From assembly GCF_004343305.1 (NCBI RefSeq), contig NZ_SMAF01000018.1, positions 1 through 58,610 on the forward strand: a stretch of 58,610 bases of DNA. Direction: 5' to 3'. The notes below the pieces were generated by a model. That model did not search any database. It had not been told where the DNA came from and was given only the letters and a program-made list of their open reading frames with translations. This document shows positions 3,371 through 22,458 of this stretch, piece after piece. A program made the position numbers and the translations under genes. The stretch is from Pseudofulvimonas gallinarii (GTDB lineage: Bacteria; Pseudomonadota; Gammaproteobacteria; Xanthomonadales; UBA2363). How positions within the stretch are numbered: position 1 is the first letter of the stretch; each line of letters begins with the position of its first letter.

Positions 3371-3644
3371 CGCGATCCGGGAAACAGGCTGCCCTGGCTG
3401 GATTGTTCCATGATTGCCGCCGCCGTTGCGGCGGGCAGGCGCGGGTGGCATGGACCGCTTTGTTGCCGGCGCCCGCCGCGGCCGGCCCCTGGCTGGCGGC
3501 GACGCGGATGGCGGCCCGCGCGATCGGGGAGCGCAAGCGCAGGGGTGCCGTGGCGTGGCGCCGCCGCCAACGCCGAGGCCGGTATCGCGACCGGCGTGCG
3601 CCAGGCCGGTGACGATGGGGCGGCTCCGGTCACCGGGCGGCGCA

Positions 3645-5144
3645 TCAACCGCGGCTTGCGCTGGACGGCCGCCGGCGGATCTCCAGGACGATCGGCATCA
3701 GCTCGGTGATGCGGGCCTGGACGCGCGCACGCTGGTAGTAGTCGAGATCGGAGCGGCGCTGCAGGCGCTCGAACTGTACCAGTGAATCCTCGAAGCGGCC
3801 GTTGTAGGCGGCCGACAGTGCATGTGCCTCGGCGGCGCGGTTTTCGTCGCCACTGATCTCGTAGGCGCGGCCGATCAGCGCGTAGAGCTTGGCGTGGTCG
3901 GTGTCGCGGTCGATCAGCGGACGCAGCAGGTTCGCCGCCAGCGTCGCGTCATCGACGTCGCCGTGCTTGAGCAGCAGCTCGGCATACGGCGCCAGGATGG
4001 CAGCGCGATCGGGATGGCGGGTGTTGAGCTCGCGGTAGCGGGCCAGGGCCTGCGCTTCCCGGCCATTGCGCCCGTCGATGTCTGCCAGCAGCAGTGCGAA
4101 GGCGAGCGTATCCGGGTGCGCTTCGACCAGTCCGGTGGCGAGGCGGGTCGCCTCGTTGAAACTGTCGCGCTGCGACAGCGCCAACGCCAGCCCGTAGCGG
4201 TCGTAGATGCTGTCCGGGTCGGCATCCAGGCGGTCGCGGTAATAGCCGACCAGGTCGCGGCTGCTGCCGTTGGTCAGGATGCGCAGGCGTTCCCGGAACA
4301 GTTCGTAGCGCCCGTCATGGCCGGACCCGACCGTGTCCTGCCGCGGGACCACGGTCATACCCTCTGCGCGCGCCTTGGCCTCGACGATGCGCGTGCTTTC
4401 GAACGGGTGGGTGCGCAGGATTTCCGGCGGCGAGACGCCGTAGTTGCGCGCGAAGCGGCTCATGCGCACCCAGACGTCGGCCTGTGCGAATGGATCGAAG
4501 CCGGCGCCGGCCAGCGTCTGGATGCCGATGCGGTCGGCCTCGTATTCGTTGGCGCGGGTGTAGTTGATCTGTGCCTGCTGCATCAGGCCCATGCCACCCA
4601 TGATCGCGGCCTGAGCCGCATCGCCACTGCTGGAACTGCTGCTCTGGCTGGCGGCGACCATCGCCGCCAGCATGCCAAGCATGATCGGAAGCGAGGCCTT
4701 GCTGGCCGATTCGGCGCCGCGCAGGGTGTGGTTCTGGGTGATGTGCGCGACTTCGTGCGCCAGGACCGCGGCCAGCTCGTCCTCGCGCTCGGTCAGCAGC
4801 ACCATGCCGGCATAGGTGCCGATATAGCCGCCCGGCGCGGCGAAGGCGTTGACGGTGCGGTCGCGGATCAAAAAAAACTTGAAGTGCTGGTCGGGCCGGC
4901 GGCCATGCGCCACCAGGCGATAGCCCAGCGTCTCGATGTATTCGTCGAGCAGCGGATCGTCGAAGAGCAGGCCGGCCTGCCGGAACGAGCCGAGCAGCTG
5001 GCGACCGTAGCGGCGCAGCTCCTCCGGCGTCGCCAGCGATTCCGCCGACGAGCCAAGGTCGGGCAGGGTGAAGTCCTGGGCCGGGAGCGATGGCGCGGCC
5101 AGCCAGGCCACGCTGCCTATAATGAGCGATAGAAGGGTGCGCAC
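3645..5144 (-). CDS. bepA: BepA/YfgC-like periplasmic M48 metalloprotease with TPR domain
   Basis: This is a periplasmic zinc protease and chaperone that helps assemble or degrade outer-membrane barrel proteins such as LptD. The GTG at 5142-5144 gives 499 residues with a clean signal peptide (VRTLLSLIIGSVAWLAAPSL then PAQD). The M48 motif HEVAH is at residues 130-134 and the third zinc ligand is in NEYEADRIG near residue 200. The C-terminal 200 residues are helical repeats typical of the TPR half (for example RYGLALALSQRDSFNEATRL). Length and architecture match BepA. It diverges from tusE across about 80 bases. A longer in-frame start at 5207 would bury the signal peptide and is rejected. Confidence 0.9.
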   Translation of the reverse strand: MRTLLSLIIGSVAWLAAPSLPAQDFTLPDLGSSAESLATPEELRRYGRQLLGSFRQAGLLFDDPLLDEYIETLGYRLVAHGRRPDQHFKFFLIRDRTVNAFAAPGGYIGTYAGMVLLTEREDELAAVLAHEVAHITQNHTLRGAESASKASLPIMLGMLAAMVAASQSSSSSSGDAAQAAIMGGMGLMQQAQINYTRANEYEADRIGIQTLAGAGFDPFAQADVWVRMSRFARNYGVSPPEILRTHPFESTRIVEAKARAEGMTVVPRQDTVGSGHDGRYELFRERLRILTNGSSRDLVGYYRDRLDADPDSIYDRYGLALALSQRDSFNEATRLATGLVEAHPDTLAFALLLADIDGRNGREAQALARYRELNTRHPDRAAILAPYAELLLKHGDVDDATLAANLLRPLIDRDTDHAKLYALIGRAYEISGDENRAAEAHALSAAYNGRFEDSLVQFERLQRRSDLDYYQRARVQARITELMPIVLEIRRRPSSASRG

Positions 5145-12438: not shown

Positions 12439-15659
<3,221 letters not shown>

Positions 15660-15663
<4 letters not shown>

Positions 15664-18045: not shown

Positions 18046-19443
18046 ATGCAGCGGATTTTCGTTGGCGCGGTGCTGCTCGGGCTGGTCGCAGCCACGGCAG
18101 CGCAGGCGTCGGAACGCAAGGCGTGGGACAGCACCTACGAACCCTTGCCCTCGTCGACCACGGTACTGCGCAACGCGACGGTGCTGGTCGGCAATGGCGA
18201 GCGCATCGAAGGCGGCGACGTCCTCATCGTCAACGGGCGCATCGAGCGCGTCGGCAAGGGCGTGCGTGCGCCGGCCGGCGCGGTCGAAGTCGATGCCACG
18301 GGCCGCTGGATCACGCCGGGCATCATCGACGTGCATTCGCACCTGGGCGTGTACCCCTCGCCGGGCATGCGCGCGCATTCCGACGGCAACGAGATGGTCA
18401 ATCCGGTGACGGCGCATGTCTGGGCCGAGCACGCCGTATGGCCACAGGATCCCGGCTTCGGCGCGGCGCTCGCCGGCGGCGTGACGGCGATGCAGATCCT
18501 GCCGGGCTCCGGCAACCTGATCGGTGGTCGCGGCGTGACGCTGAAGAACGTCGCGGCGGAAAGCTACCAGGCGATGAAGTTCCCCGATGCACCGCAGGGA
18601 CTGAAGATGGCCTGCGGCGAGAATCCCAAGCGCTTCTACGGCGGCAAGGGCCAGGCGCCGATGACGCGCATGGGCAACGTCGCCGCCTACCGCGCGCAGT
18701 TCCAGGAGGCGCAGGAATACCGTCGCAACTGGCAGGCCTGGGAGCGGCGCCAGCGCGAGGGCACGGGCAACCGCCGTGGCGCTGAGAGCGGTGGCGCGCC
18801 GGCGACGCCGCCGAAGCGCGATCTGCGACTGGAAACGCTGGCGGGCGTGCTCGACGGCGACATCCTCGTGCACATCCACTGCTATCGCGCCGACGAGATG
18901 GCCGTGATGCTGGACCTGGCGCGCGAATTCGAATTCCGCATTTCCGCCTTCCACCATGGCGTCGAGGCCTACAAGCTCGCCGACCGCCTGGCCGAGGAAG
19001 GCGTCTGCGGCGCGCTGTGGGCCGACTGGTGGGGCTTCAAGATGGAAGCCTACGACGCCATCAACGAGAACCTGCTGCTGGTGGACCGGCCGGCGAACGG
19101 CTGCGCCATCGTGCATTCGGATTCGTCCGAGGGCATCCAGCGCCTCAACCAGGAAGCCGGCAAGGTCATGGGCCACGCCCGCCAGGTCGGTCTCGAGATC
19201 GCACCGGAGCGGGCGATCCGCTGGCTGACGCAGAACGCGGCGAAGGCGCTCGGCATCGATGCACACACCGGCACGCTGGAGGCCGGCAAGATGGCCGACG
19301 TCGTGATCTGGAACCGCGATCCATTCAGCGTCTATGCGCAGGCCGACCAGGTCTTCATCGACGGTGCGCTGGTGTACGACCGCAGCGATGCGACGCGTCG
19401 ACCGGTCAGCGATTTCATGCTCGGCCAGGAGGTGCAGCCGTGA
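18046..19443 (+). CDS. Exported amidohydrolase (catalytically complete)
   Basis: This 465-residue amidohydrolase-superfamily protein begins with a signal peptide (IFVGAVLLGLVAATAAQASE), so it acts in the periplasm or outside. The metal-binding set is intact: HSH in PGIIDVHSHLGVYP, later histidines in ILVHIHCYRADEM and SAFHHGVEAYK, and the aspartate in IVHSDSSEG. The C-terminal composite beta domain closes with TGTLEAGKMADVVIWNRDPF. It resembles imidazolonepropionase/prolidase-like exported hydrolases, but the substrate cannot be named. It overlaps the next, related gene by 4 bases (GTGA). Confidence 0.88.
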   Translation: MQRIFVGAVLLGLVAATAAQASERKAWDSTYEPLPSSTTVLRNATVLVGNGERIEGGDVLIVNGRIERVGKGVRAPAGAVEVDATGRWITPGIIDVHSHLGVYPSPGMRAHSDGNEMVNPVTAHVWAEHAVWPQDPGFGAALAGGVTAMQILPGSGNLIGGRGVTLKNVAAESYQAMKFPDAPQGLKMACGENPKRFYGGKGQAPMTRMGNVAAYRAQFQEAQEYRRNWQAWERRQREGTGNRRGAESGGAPATPPKRDLRLETLAGVLDGDILVHIHCYRADEMAVMLDLAREFEFRISAFHHGVEAYKLADRLAEEGVCGALWADWWGFKMEAYDAINENLLLVDRPANGCAIVHSDSSEGIQRLNQEAGKVMGHARQVGLEIAPERAIRWLTQNAAKALGIDAHTGTLEAGKMADVVIWNRDPFSVYAQADQVFIDGALVYDRSDATRRPVSDFMLGQEVQP

Positions 19444-20762
19444 TCCGTTCGACCGCAACGCTGGCCGCGCTGGCCTTCGGCATCGCAACCGCCTTCACCG
19501 CCGGCACGCTGCGCGCGCAGGACGTGCTGATCAAGGGCGCGCGCGTGCATACCGCCTCCGAGGCCGGCACCCTTGAACGCGCCGACGTGCTGGTGCGCGG
19601 CGGTGTGATCCGCGCCGTGGCTGCCGATGTCGCCGCGCCCGCAGGCGTGCCGGTGTTCGATGCCGCCGGACTGGAACTGACGCCGACGCTGTTTGGCGGC
19701 CTCAGTGGCCTCGGCGTCGAGGAAGTGTCGGGCGAGGCGGAAACGGTCGACCACAGCGTCGCGCTCAACGGGCCCGGCACCGTGCCGGCGATCGAACCGG
19801 ACTGGCGTCCGGAGTTCGACCTGTTGCCGGCCTTCAATCCGCGTTCGGCGGCGATCGGCGTCAATCGCGTCGCCGGCATCGGCTGGACCGTGCTGGCACC
19901 GAACGCGATGCCGGGCGGCAGTTTCGTCGCCGGGCAGGGCGCGGCGGTGCGCCTTGATGGCAGCTTCGACGCGGCGCTGGAAGCGGGACGCAGCCTGTTC
20001 ATCGACCTCGGCAGCGATTCCAAGGCGCTTGCCGGGGGCAGCCGCGCAGCGCAGTACATGCTGCTGGAACAGGCCTTGCGCGAGGCTCGGCCGGCGCCCG
20101 CCGCCGGCATGGTGTCGATGGTGCCGGGCCACGGCCTGCTGACGCCGCTGGGTCGCGAAACGCTGATGCGTTACGCGCGCGGTGGCCGCGTCGTCTTCCA
20201 CGTCGATCGCGCCGCCGACATCCGCCAGGCGATCGCACTGGCGCAGCGCAGCGGCTTCGAGCCGGTAATCGCCGGCGGCGTCGAAGCCTGGGTGGTGGCC
20301 GACGAGCTGGCGCGCGCGAAGGTGCCGGTGCTGCTCGATGCGCTGGAAAACCTGCCGGGCAGTTTCGACCGCCTCGGCGCGCGCCTGGACAACGCGGCGC
20401 GACTGCATGCCGCCGGCGTGCCGGTGGCTTTCACGCAGAGCGGCGACGCCACCCACAACGCCCGCAAGATCCGCCAGGTGGCCGGCAACGCCGTCGCCAA
20501 CGGCCTGCCCTGGGAGGCGGCGCTGGCCGGCCTCACGCGCGTGCCGGCGGAGACCTTCGGTGTCGCCGACCAGGTCGGTCGCATCACCGTGGGCCAGCGC
20601 GCCGACCTGGTGCTATGGTCGGGCGACCCGCTGGAAGTGACGACCTTCGCCCGGCAGGTCTGGTTCGACGGCAAGCCCGCTTCCATGCGTTCGCGGCAGA
20701 CCGAGCTGCGCGACCGTTACCTGAAGCCGGCCGGTCCGCTGCCGCGCGCCTACACGCATTGA
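19440..20762 (+). CDS. Exported amidohydrolase-like protein lacking metal ligands
   Basis: This 440-residue paralogue of the upstream gene starts at a GTG that overlaps its stop, with AGGAGG 6 bases before. It has a signal peptide (LAALAFGIATAFTAGTLRA). The amidohydrolase frame is preserved (DVLIKGARVHTASEAGTLER at the start, VGRITVGQRADLVLWSGDPL at the end). However, the HxH metal site is LTPTLFGGLSGLG, the FHHGVEAYK position is IAGGVEAWV, and VHSDSSEG is TQSGDATH. Three metal positions are thus lost, so it is probably a pseudoenzyme. Strict coupling suggests it works with the upstream enzyme, perhaps as a subunit. Confidence 0.82.
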   Translation: MIRSTATLAALAFGIATAFTAGTLRAQDVLIKGARVHTASEAGTLERADVLVRGGVIRAVAADVAAPAGVPVFDAAGLELTPTLFGGLSGLGVEEVSGEAETVDHSVALNGPGTVPAIEPDWRPEFDLLPAFNPRSAAIGVNRVAGIGWTVLAPNAMPGGSFVAGQGAAVRLDGSFDAALEAGRSLFIDLGSDSKALAGGSRAAQYMLLEQALREARPAPAAGMVSMVPGHGLLTPLGRETLMRYARGGRVVFHVDRAADIRQAIALAQRSGFEPVIAGGVEAWVVADELARAKVPVLLDALENLPGSFDRLGARLDNAARLHAAGVPVAFTQSGDATHNARKIRQVAGNAVANGLPWEAALAGLTRVPAETFGVADQVGRITVGQRADLVLWSGDPLEVTTFARQVWFDGKPASMRSRQTELRDRYLKPAGPLPRAYTH

Positions 20763-20868: not shown

Positions 20869-22458
20869 ATGACGCAGCGCTGGATCCGTTCGATGCTGGT
20901 CGTGTCGCTGGCCTGTAGTGGCCAGCACGCCACGGCCGCCACCTGGTACATCTCGGAAAGCCTGGGCAACGACGCCTGGAGCGGCCTGCTCGCCGAGCCC
21001 AATGGCGCCGGCACCGATGGTCCCAAACGCAGCCTTGCGGCCGCACAGACGTTGCTTGCCGCCGCCGGCCCCGGCGACGACGTGCGCCTGCGCCGCGGTG
21101 ATGTCTGGACCGGTGGCAGCGGCCTGATGATCCATCGCACGCAGGGCACGGCGGCGCAGCCGGTCCGGCTGCATGCCTACGGCACCGGCGCCGCGCCGAG
21201 CCTGGTGATCACCGGCGCCAGTCCGGCGCTGGTCGTCCGCGGCGATGCCGACCGCGCCAGCCGCCACGTCGAGATCGCCGACCTGCAATTCCAGTCGACG
21301 GCGCCGGCCGGCTCGCGCGGCGACGGCGTCCTGGTGCTGGAAGGTTTCCATCCGCACCGGCCTTCGGACATCGTCCTGCGAGCGATCGACGTCCGCGGCT
21401 TCCTCTCCGGCATCAACATCCAGGCCGACCGGGTGACGCTGGAAGAATCGATCGTGTTCAACAACTTCGCGCTGGCCGGGGAGGCCGACGGCGGCCCCGG
21501 CGTCTACGTGCTCGGCTCGTCGGCCACCATCCGCAACAACCTGATCGACCACAACGCAGGCGACCGTTCCTTCTTCGCCTGGAACCTCTACGTCCACGGC
21601 GGCAGCGGCCATGTCATCGCCGGCAACACGCTCAGTCGCTCGGTCGGCGGACTCAAGCTGCGCGCCAATGCCGACACCGTGGTGATGCACAACCGCTTCC
21701 GCGAGATCTGGCTGACGCCGATCAATGTCGGCGGCGACGATGCCGGCGGCTGCTTCGACCTGCGCATCGAAGGCAACGAGATCACCCAGTCGGTCGGCGG
21801 CATCACCATCCAGGACCAGTCCGGTGGCGGCACGATCGGCACCCATCGCCTTCGCGTCGTCAACAACGTCATCGGCGAGGACAGCCCGCCGGTGCCGTCC
21901 GCGCCCTTCGGCGCCGGCGCCGATGGCCTGATCGCCGTGTCGCCGGATCCGCTGGACGACGTGCTGATCGCACACAACACCGTCTGGGCGACGGCCGGCA
22001 AGCACGCGCTCAGCGTGTACGGCCCGGCACGTCCCGGCCTGCGCGTCACCGGGAACCTCTGGGGCCAGGCCGACGCCGGCGTTGCCCATGTCCGACTGGG
22101 TTCGGCGGCAGTGGCTGGCAGCATCGGGCTGGACCACAACCTCTATGCCGGCGTCGGCGCCGTCGCCAGCGTCGGCGGCAGCACGCACGCCACGCTGCCG
22201 GCGTTCCGCGCCGCATGGCCGACCCTGGAATCCGCGGGGCTGGCCGGAGCCGCGAACCTCGTCGGACCACCGGCGGACCTGAGACCGACCGAGGACAGCC
22301 ACCTCGTCATCGACACCGGACCGGTGCTGGCGGAAGTCGGCGATGACATCGACGGCACGCCGCGTCCGCTGGATGGCGATGGCGACGGTACCGCACGCAG
22401 CGACATCGGTGCCTGGGAGTTCGGTTCCGACGTGATCTTCGCCGACAGCTTCGAATGA
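20869..22458 (+). CDS. Exported right-handed parallel beta-helix protein
   Basis: This 529-residue protein starts at 20869 after AGGGAGAAGGGG and has a signal peptide (MLVVSLACSGQHATAATWYI). The body is made of short beta-helix turns rich in N and G (ATIRNNLIDHNAGDR, GHVIAGNTLSRSVGGLKLRA, VVMHNRFREIWLTPINVGGD), as in pectate-lyase-like or NosD-like proteins. No specific catalytic residues can be assigned. It ends in DVIFADSFE, close to the DRIFASGFE end of the unrelated exported protein at 27036. A strong terminator follows. It may bind or cleave polysaccharide, but this is inference from fold only. Confidence 0.82.
   Translation: MTQRWIRSMLVVSLACSGQHATAATWYISESLGNDAWSGLLAEPNGAGTDGPKRSLAAAQTLLAAAGPGDDVRLRRGDVWTGGSGLMIHRTQGTAAQPVRLHAYGTGAAPSLVITGASPALVVRGDADRASRHVEIADLQFQSTAPAGSRGDGVLVLEGFHPHRPSDIVLRAIDVRGFLSGINIQADRVTLEESIVFNNFALAGEADGGPGVYVLGSSATIRNNLIDHNAGDRSFFAWNLYVHGGSGHVIAGNTLSRSVGGLKLRANADTVVMHNRFREIWLTPINVGGDDAGGCFDLRIEGNEITQSVGGITIQDQSGGGTIGTHRLRVVNNVIGEDSPPVPSAPFGAGADGLIAVSPDPLDDVLIAHNTVWATAGKHALSVYGPARPGLRVTGNLWGQADAGVAHVRLGSAAVAGSIGLDHNLYAGVGAVASVGGSTHATLPAFRAAWPTLESAGLAGAANLVGPPADLRPTEDSHLVIDTGPVLAEVGDDIDGTPRPLDGDGDGTARSDIGAWEFGSDVIFADSFE

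Follow-up and report, generated by a model that had tools for sequence, protein, structure and literature searches.

An amidohydrolase with predicted export and its ligand-less paralogue as a conserved gene pair in Pseudomonadota

A dead amidohydrolase subunit is already known, as a general idea, from the aspartate transcarbamoylase (ATCase) complex of Pseudomonas aeruginosa, where, as reported (PMC7053772), an inactive pseudo-dihydroorotase without metal ligands is needed for the activity of its partner. Here we describe two adjacent genes, A and B, in a 58,610-nucleotide stretch of the Pseudofulvimonas gallinarii genome (contig NZ_SMAF01000018.1, positions 1 to 58,610; referred to as the window), which encode an amidohydrolase with predicted export and a paralogue that has lost its metal ligands. 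The two systems are alike in having a ligand-less chain of the amidohydrolase superfamily, placed in a bacterial complex in P. aeruginosa and in a putative one here. They differ in that the partner in P. aeruginosa is, in that report, an unrelated cytoplasmic transcarbamoylase, whereas here it is an active paralogue and both proteins look exported. There is no transcarbamoylase gene beside B in the window, where the neighbours are A and the DUF2007 and Beta_helix proteins; the genes flanking the pair give no hint of its function.

Pairs of one competent and one incompetent paralogue are also reported for trypanosome RNase III enzymes (PMC9508840) and heteromeric tRNA-modifying enzymes (PMC6382703), but these are eukaryotic or RNA-acting and have other folds. 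The solved structure closest to A and B, both by sequence and by model, is that of a Thermotoga maritima amidohydrolase (PDB 3OOQ), a structure deposit with no function in its title. It has the same six ligands as A but, unlike A and B, has no signal-like N terminus in its aligned part and is a single polypeptide in the entry. The best-scoring named enzymes after 3OOQ are those of the isoaspartyl dipeptidase (IadA), Xaa-Pro dipeptidase and lysine/arginine carboxypeptidase groups; these lie about 20 Z units below 3OOQ and are nearly tied with deaminases and dihydroorotase. A literature search, with subscription papers mostly outside its scope, found no paper naming 3OOQ or TM0814 and no exported amidohydrolase strictly paired with its own dead paralogue.

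Our results suggest, with a probability of roughly two-thirds, that the pair encodes a hetero-oligomeric hydrolase with predicted export, which probably acts on small peptides and in which A would be the catalytic chain and B an obligate non-catalytic partner. The pair has the following layout.

18046..19443, plus strand: gene A, an amidohydrolase with predicted export, catalytic to judge by its sequence, 465 amino acids; start ATG at 18046, stop codon 19441-19443; Pfam Amidohydro_3 4.9e-16 and Amidohydro_1 4.6e-14; AlphaFold2 model
19440..20762, plus strand: gene B, a ligand-less amidohydrolase paralogue with predicted export, 440 amino acids; start GTG at 19440, stop codon 20760-20762; Pfam Amidohydro_1 3e-11; AlphaFold2 model; one of six ligands
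19440..19443, plus strand: GTGA overlap of the A stop and the B start, with 4 bases in common
19427..19432, plus strand: AGGAGG ribosome-binding motif for B, within the last codons of A, 7 bases 5' of the GTG

Both proteins exceed the gathering scores of Pfam Amidohydro_1 and Amidohydro_3 and have 3OOQ as their best match in the PDB (E values of 5.5e-62 for A and 9.4e-19 for B); hence, we regard them as paralogues.

Loss of the metal site in B and descent of the pair

The metal ligands were compared in a single alignment of 148 different (deduplicated) A proteins, 147 B proteins, nine copies of a further ligand-less protein termed G0 (see below) and five unpaired relatives, 3OOQ included. As the rows come from loci chosen for holding an A-B pair, this alignment tests residues and not linkage. 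Window A has all six ligands (H97, H99, K187, H278, H304 and D359), and the complete set is present in 148/148 A and in 5/5 unpaired relatives. By comparison, 104 of the 147 B proteins retain none of these ligands, 38 retain one, five retain two and none retains more; eight of the nine G0 proteins retain none and the other retains one. The residues of window B at the six places are L, G, F, H, G and S, a loss of five of the six. The individual positions are as follows.

18334..18342, plus strand: H97-S-H99 of A, the first metal-ligand pair, in strand 1 of the fold (H and H in 148/148 A)
18604..18606, plus strand: K187 of A, candidate carboxylated bridging lysine (K in 148/148 A and in 5/5 unpaired relatives, 3OOQ among them)
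18877..18879, plus strand: H278 of A (H in 148/148 A and in 31/147 B, window B included)
18955..18957, plus strand: H304 of A (H in 148/148 A; G in 133/147 B)
19120..19122, plus strand: D359 of A (D in 148/148 A and in 9/147 B)
20199..20201, plus strand: H254 of B, equivalent to H278 and the sole ligand place in window B with the original residue, from the same alignment

The catalytic ligand set of the superfamily (HxH, Lys, His, His, Asp) is complete in A and incomplete in B. A two-metal site with a carboxylated-lysine bridge is probable in A because the six superfamily ligands are present, with K187 as the candidate carboxylated ligand by analogy with the superfamily. Lysine is not among the six commonest letters at the K187 place in the 147 B proteins. 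The old metal site of B has been altered in a conserved, nonrandom way, with the glycine at the H304 place joined by a phenylalanine at the K187 place in 78 of the 147. In a set of 75 B proteins, a block of charged or polar residues hardly varies (N132, R142, R201, R256 and D259 in alignment numbering), and the nearly invariant residues of B are of the R, D, N and W types.

A first-pass annotation of the window, made from the sequence alone, had proposed an enzyme/pseudoenzyme heteromer in which A keeps HxH, two later histidines and the aspartate while B has lost HxH, a later histidine and the aspartate. Both descriptions agree with the alignment, to which K187, omitted at the time, can now be added. 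The same annotation had reasoned that close homologues of B with intact ligands would speak against this proposal; such homologues were looked for and not found, the loss being common to 147/147 B. The enzyme/pseudoenzyme assignment therefore stands at the level of sequence: B is, on this evidence, dead as a metal enzyme, yet it is conserved as a partner.

A careful tree of 72 rows, unrooted and with the six ligand columns kept, has one branch that parts 37 ligand-bearing from 35 ligand-less proteins (support of 100/98; 200 of 200 bootstrap trees), with G0 on the ligand-less side. One long row, L150_G0, was rejected as a G0 member and left out of this tree, as it represents an unrelated, ligand-bearing, prolidase-like enzyme. 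The order of lineages is similar in the A and B halves of quick trees, and the second pairs of P. gallinarii and of locus L150 fall outside the rest in both halves. The trees are consistent with a single duplication and a single loss of the metal site, after which A and B evolved together. As the careful tree is unrooted and includes the ligand columns, the direction of change from a full to a lost site rests on the full sites of the unpaired relatives.

Candidate pairs of sequences numbered 370, and in the 30 with the highest similarity the ratio of nonsynonymous to synonymous substitution rates (dN/dS) was 0.03-0.42 for B and 0.03-0.39 for A, and B is under purifying selection in these comparisons. 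B evolves faster than A, as seen in longer end branches of the tree and in about 22 of those 30 comparisons.

Linkage, coupling and distribution

A search with B covered 299 genomes of the order and found matches in 161 at E values of up to 1e-20. The 70 loci read comprised those of the best matches, a further 40 stretches chosen from the list and P. gallinarii's own second locus; A stands directly ahead of B in 69 of these, and in the remaining one (L054) A is truncated by the contig. An unbiased sample of 397 Pseudomonadota genomes with a completeness of at least 90% was searched with profiles of A (E up to 1e-60) and of B (E up to 1e-40), and the two profiles match the same 70 genomes, which belong to 43 of the 232 genera. 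As the profiles cross-match, B places were defined as the 74 best rows of the B search (320.8 bits or more; the row below these, with 259 bits, is an A). Each of the 74 A places in the 70 genomes has a B place next downstream on the same strand, although only the best four candidates were scored per genome and extra copies could therefore be missed. In addition, a scan of GTDB genomes seeded on A alone (hereafter the named scan) gave 80 loci, the best 80 of 523 relatives, from 45 Gammaproteobacteria, 29 Alphaproteobacteria, five other Pseudomonadota and one Gemmatimonadota metagenome-assembled genome. B comes next after A in 79 of these loci, with two of the B genes cut by a contig end; in the 80th (L159) the contig stops 374 bases past A, within the apparent start of B.

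Unpaired relatives with full ligands were found in records of Nonomuraea, Monoglobus, Acetoanaerobium and Cytobacillus, and no second homologue was found within 4 kb of any of them. Two complete pairs are present in 4 of the 70 genomes, that of P. gallinarii included, and there was no odd single gene in the sample. The second pair of P. gallinarii (L006 5090-7596 of contig C17, minus strand) is diverged and also has a 4-base overlap; its A keeps the six ligands and its B has none, HxH having been lost here as well. The pair is real, ancient and widespread, and A and B were inseparable in each of the genomes examined. The linkage thus goes beyond what had been claimed from the window, and the contrary finding named beforehand, that the two genes are usually unlinked, was sought in vain.

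The sequence around the junction points to translational coupling. The GTGA overlap noted in the first-pass annotation lies where it was reported, and the GTG start of B is supported by the AGGAGG motif that stands 7 bases ahead of it. The window contains a single instance of AGGAGGTG-N5-GTGA, where 0.01 would be expected. A longer frame with a GTG start at 19017 in the list of open reading frames is a listing artefact. A and B overlap in 53 of 79 pairs of the named scan, in 43 of these by 4 bases, and a Shine-Dalgarno-like 4-mer precedes B in 50 of the 52 pairs with a 4- or 1-base overlap, compared with 10.7% of random windows in A. A scan for promoters and terminators between 17500 and 21100 found none, with 0.3 and 1.6 expected, and nothing was concluded from it.

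Two further features of the window may be recorded. A right-handed beta-helix protein with a signal-like start is encoded directly 3' of B on the same strand (20869-22458), and no conserved tie to the pair was seen. Positions 12439-15663 hold an ordinary gene for the large chain of carbamoyl-phosphate synthase, and the 1,090-amino-acid frame on its opposite strand is a high-GC artefact.

Fold, predicted export and possible substrates

Both proteins are modelled with the TIM-barrel fold of the amidohydrolases. The AlphaFold2 model of A (predicted local distance difference test score, pLDDT, of 89.5) matches 3OOQ with a Z score of 45.5 and a root mean square deviation (rmsd) of 2.1 over 381 residues; that of B (pLDDT of 92.5; predicted template modelling score, pTM, of 0.90) does so with a Z score of 44.9 and an rmsd of 2.4 over 363 residues. 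3OOQ is the top structural match of both models, the next having Z scores of 25.4 for B and 24.0 for A. The fold of B is, as modelled, intact.

Export was assessed from the hydropathy of the N terminus, as the mean Kyte-Doolittle value of the best 11-mer. Window A and window B both start with a hydrophobic stretch (2.94 and 2.07, respectively). The looser threshold of 1.6 was passed by 96/131 A, 123/127 B and, with a value of 1.63, a single one of the four unpaired relatives, and a stricter threshold by 84/131 A, 111/127 B and none of the four unpaired relatives; the counts for A are lowered because its start codons were chosen by a script and because some loci cut A. Four cysteines of A (190, 279, 321 and 353), two of which adjoin metal ligands, are conserved together in 129-130 of the 148 A proteins and absent from the five unpaired relatives and from the G0-linked group; they would suit disulfides outside the cytoplasm. 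The earlier view that both proteins have signal peptides and act outside the cytoplasm is thus favoured by the hydrophobic N termini and the conserved cysteines of A, while hydropathy was the only test applied to the N termini themselves.

The substrate may be small peptides, which is a best guess held with low confidence. An NCBIfam scan at E values of up to 1 gave matches to 71 families for A and 32 for B, and none of the 25 families listed for each reached its curated cut-off; the scores for imidazolonepropionase (hutI, TIGR01224; 51.9 bits for A and 21.0 for B versus 298.15) and Xaa-Pro dipeptidase (NF051886; 55.2 and 27.2 bits versus 500) fell below it. After 3OOQ, A is structurally nearest to IadA (Z of 24.0-23.7), with deaminases and dihydroorotase within about 2 units, and B is nearest to a putative prolidase (Z of 25.4), followed by dipeptidases or carboxypeptidases. 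As the margin of IadA over the deaminases and dihydroorotase is small, no substrate is named from the fold. Clustering of the neighbourhoods of 79 named-scan loci gave one recurrent adjacent neighbour, a POT peptide transporter encoded immediately 5' of A in 12 loci, nine of them Sphingomonadales by name; the one representative tested scored 366 bits against a cut-off of 130 for an oligopeptide:H+ symporter. Other neighbours were set aside as non-adjacent or because they looked like a gene order peculiar to one family. On a Qipengyuania plasmid, too, a gene annotated as a peptide MFS transporter lies upstream of A. In L150, a Xaa-Pro-dipeptidase-like gene (3592-4932; 400 bits versus a cut-off of 500) shares four bases with the start of A; this locus also carries a second A-B pair on the other strand (226-2759). 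It is the nearest solved enzymes, the POT transporter and the dipeptidase-like gene of L150 that together make small peptides the best guess.

The role of the ligand-less partner

The best indirect evidence for contact between a dead and a live barrel comes from G0, a further ligand-less gene ahead of A and B in six loci of one related family, three of which are truncated at the locus edge. A search for G0 in the 397-genome sample matched eight genomes, in all of which G0 and A form a single open frame of 1,006-1,110 amino acids followed by B. Each of these frames contains a single HSH, which lies in its C-terminal half; in the N-terminal half, the strand-1 motif lacks HxH. Loci L166-L173 encode proteins of about 1,000 amino acids in which a ligand-less barrel and a C-terminal extension are joined to a full A; in the G0 protein tested, this extension matched no Pfam family. 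A Hymenobacter plasmid (L160 3290-7711) has the same G0-A-B order, in which a single frame covers part of G0 and the beginning of A, and B comes after it; the region is broken over several frames there, by mutation or by sequencing error. These fusions place a dead and a live barrel in one chain, and they concern G0, not B.

We infer an A-B heteromer from the coupling, the perfect co-occurrence, the joint duplication and the fusion of a ligand-less, B-like domain to A. In such a complex, A would be a metal-dependent amidohydrolase resembling Thermotoga 3OOQ, and B a chain of the same fold that has no metal site and would not be an enzyme of this type. Translational coupling would yield equal amounts of the two chains, both of which would be exported and then assembled outside the cytoplasm. 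B may replace a second catalytic chain in the oligomer, where it could stabilise A, complete the substrate pocket of A or regulate A, and the substrate would likely be a small peptide or a peptide-like amide. A motif like SRQTELRDRY at the C terminus of B (window 20199-20762), present in 115/127 B and 0/131 A, may be a docking tail; this is only a lead, because the motif is missing from both B2-type proteins tested and from one f9 B.

Several observations weigh against this reading. The structure models are of single chains, and two neighbouring genes could be passed on together every time and still serve different functions. In the fusions, the partner of A is G0 and not B. The fold does not need B, since unpaired relatives with full ligands exist. 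The evidence for export is a weak hydropathy test that separates the groups poorly at the looser threshold. Only 12 of 79 loci have the peptide transporter next to A, and the window pair lacks it as a neighbour.

Of the other explanations, it is conceivable, though unlikely, that B is a ligand-binding or substrate-delivery protein whose old pocket binds the substrate or product of A unhydrolysed, with no stoichiometric complex. The former metal site of B has indeed been replaced conservedly at the H304 and K187 places instead of drifting, and the nearly invariant charged or polar block also speaks for this role; however, tasks carried out apart would not require a coupled 1:1 order in 74/74 copies, and the ligand-less domains fused to A would be left unexplained. 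These fused domains also bear on a somewhat less probable role for B as an assembly or metal-loading chaperone for A, acting outside the cytoplasm and absent from the mature enzyme, since a domain fused in 8/8 cases remains with the mature chain. A conserved full fold likewise exceeds the obvious needs of a chaperone. Yet three of the four unpaired relatives have no signal-like N terminus and no B alongside, so that B could serve a need created by export, and the four cysteines in about 130 of 148 A proteins are another feature of A in the exported group.

Purifying selection on B and its nearly invariant R, D, N and W residues would also be expected of an enzyme with a metal-free activity of its own. 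This appears improbable, as the six ligand places hold no invariant set of residues, with none of the original ligands in 104/147 B, and we know of no metal-free activity on the amidohydrolase fold. The idea that B is a duplicated gene in decay that travels with A has almost nothing to recommend it beyond the faster evolution of B; the low dN/dS values, the retention in 74/74 copies, the intact fold and the joint duplication of A and B contradict decay. A non-catalytic partner within a hetero-oligomer is the role of B that we favour.

We would tentatively extend this reading, at somewhat less than even odds, to a scenario in which, on leaving the cytoplasm in diderms, a single-gene enzyme became an obligate hetero-oligomer through one duplication and one loss of the site, after which A never again occurred without B. 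Some lineages would then have added a fused dead G0, giving one live and two dead barrels, and dead subunits would be required in an exported peptide-processing enzyme. The amidohydrolase superfamily is among the best-studied groups of enzymes, yet this strict pair is present in 70 of 397 Pseudomonadota genomes, or roughly one in six. On the Qipengyuania plasmid, A and B are both annotated as amidohydrolase, so that B carries an enzyme name which its sequence rules out. Expression screens of A may come up empty if B is left out, and the unpaired relatives offer a natural comparison for how a single-gene enzyme may turn into an obligate heteromer.

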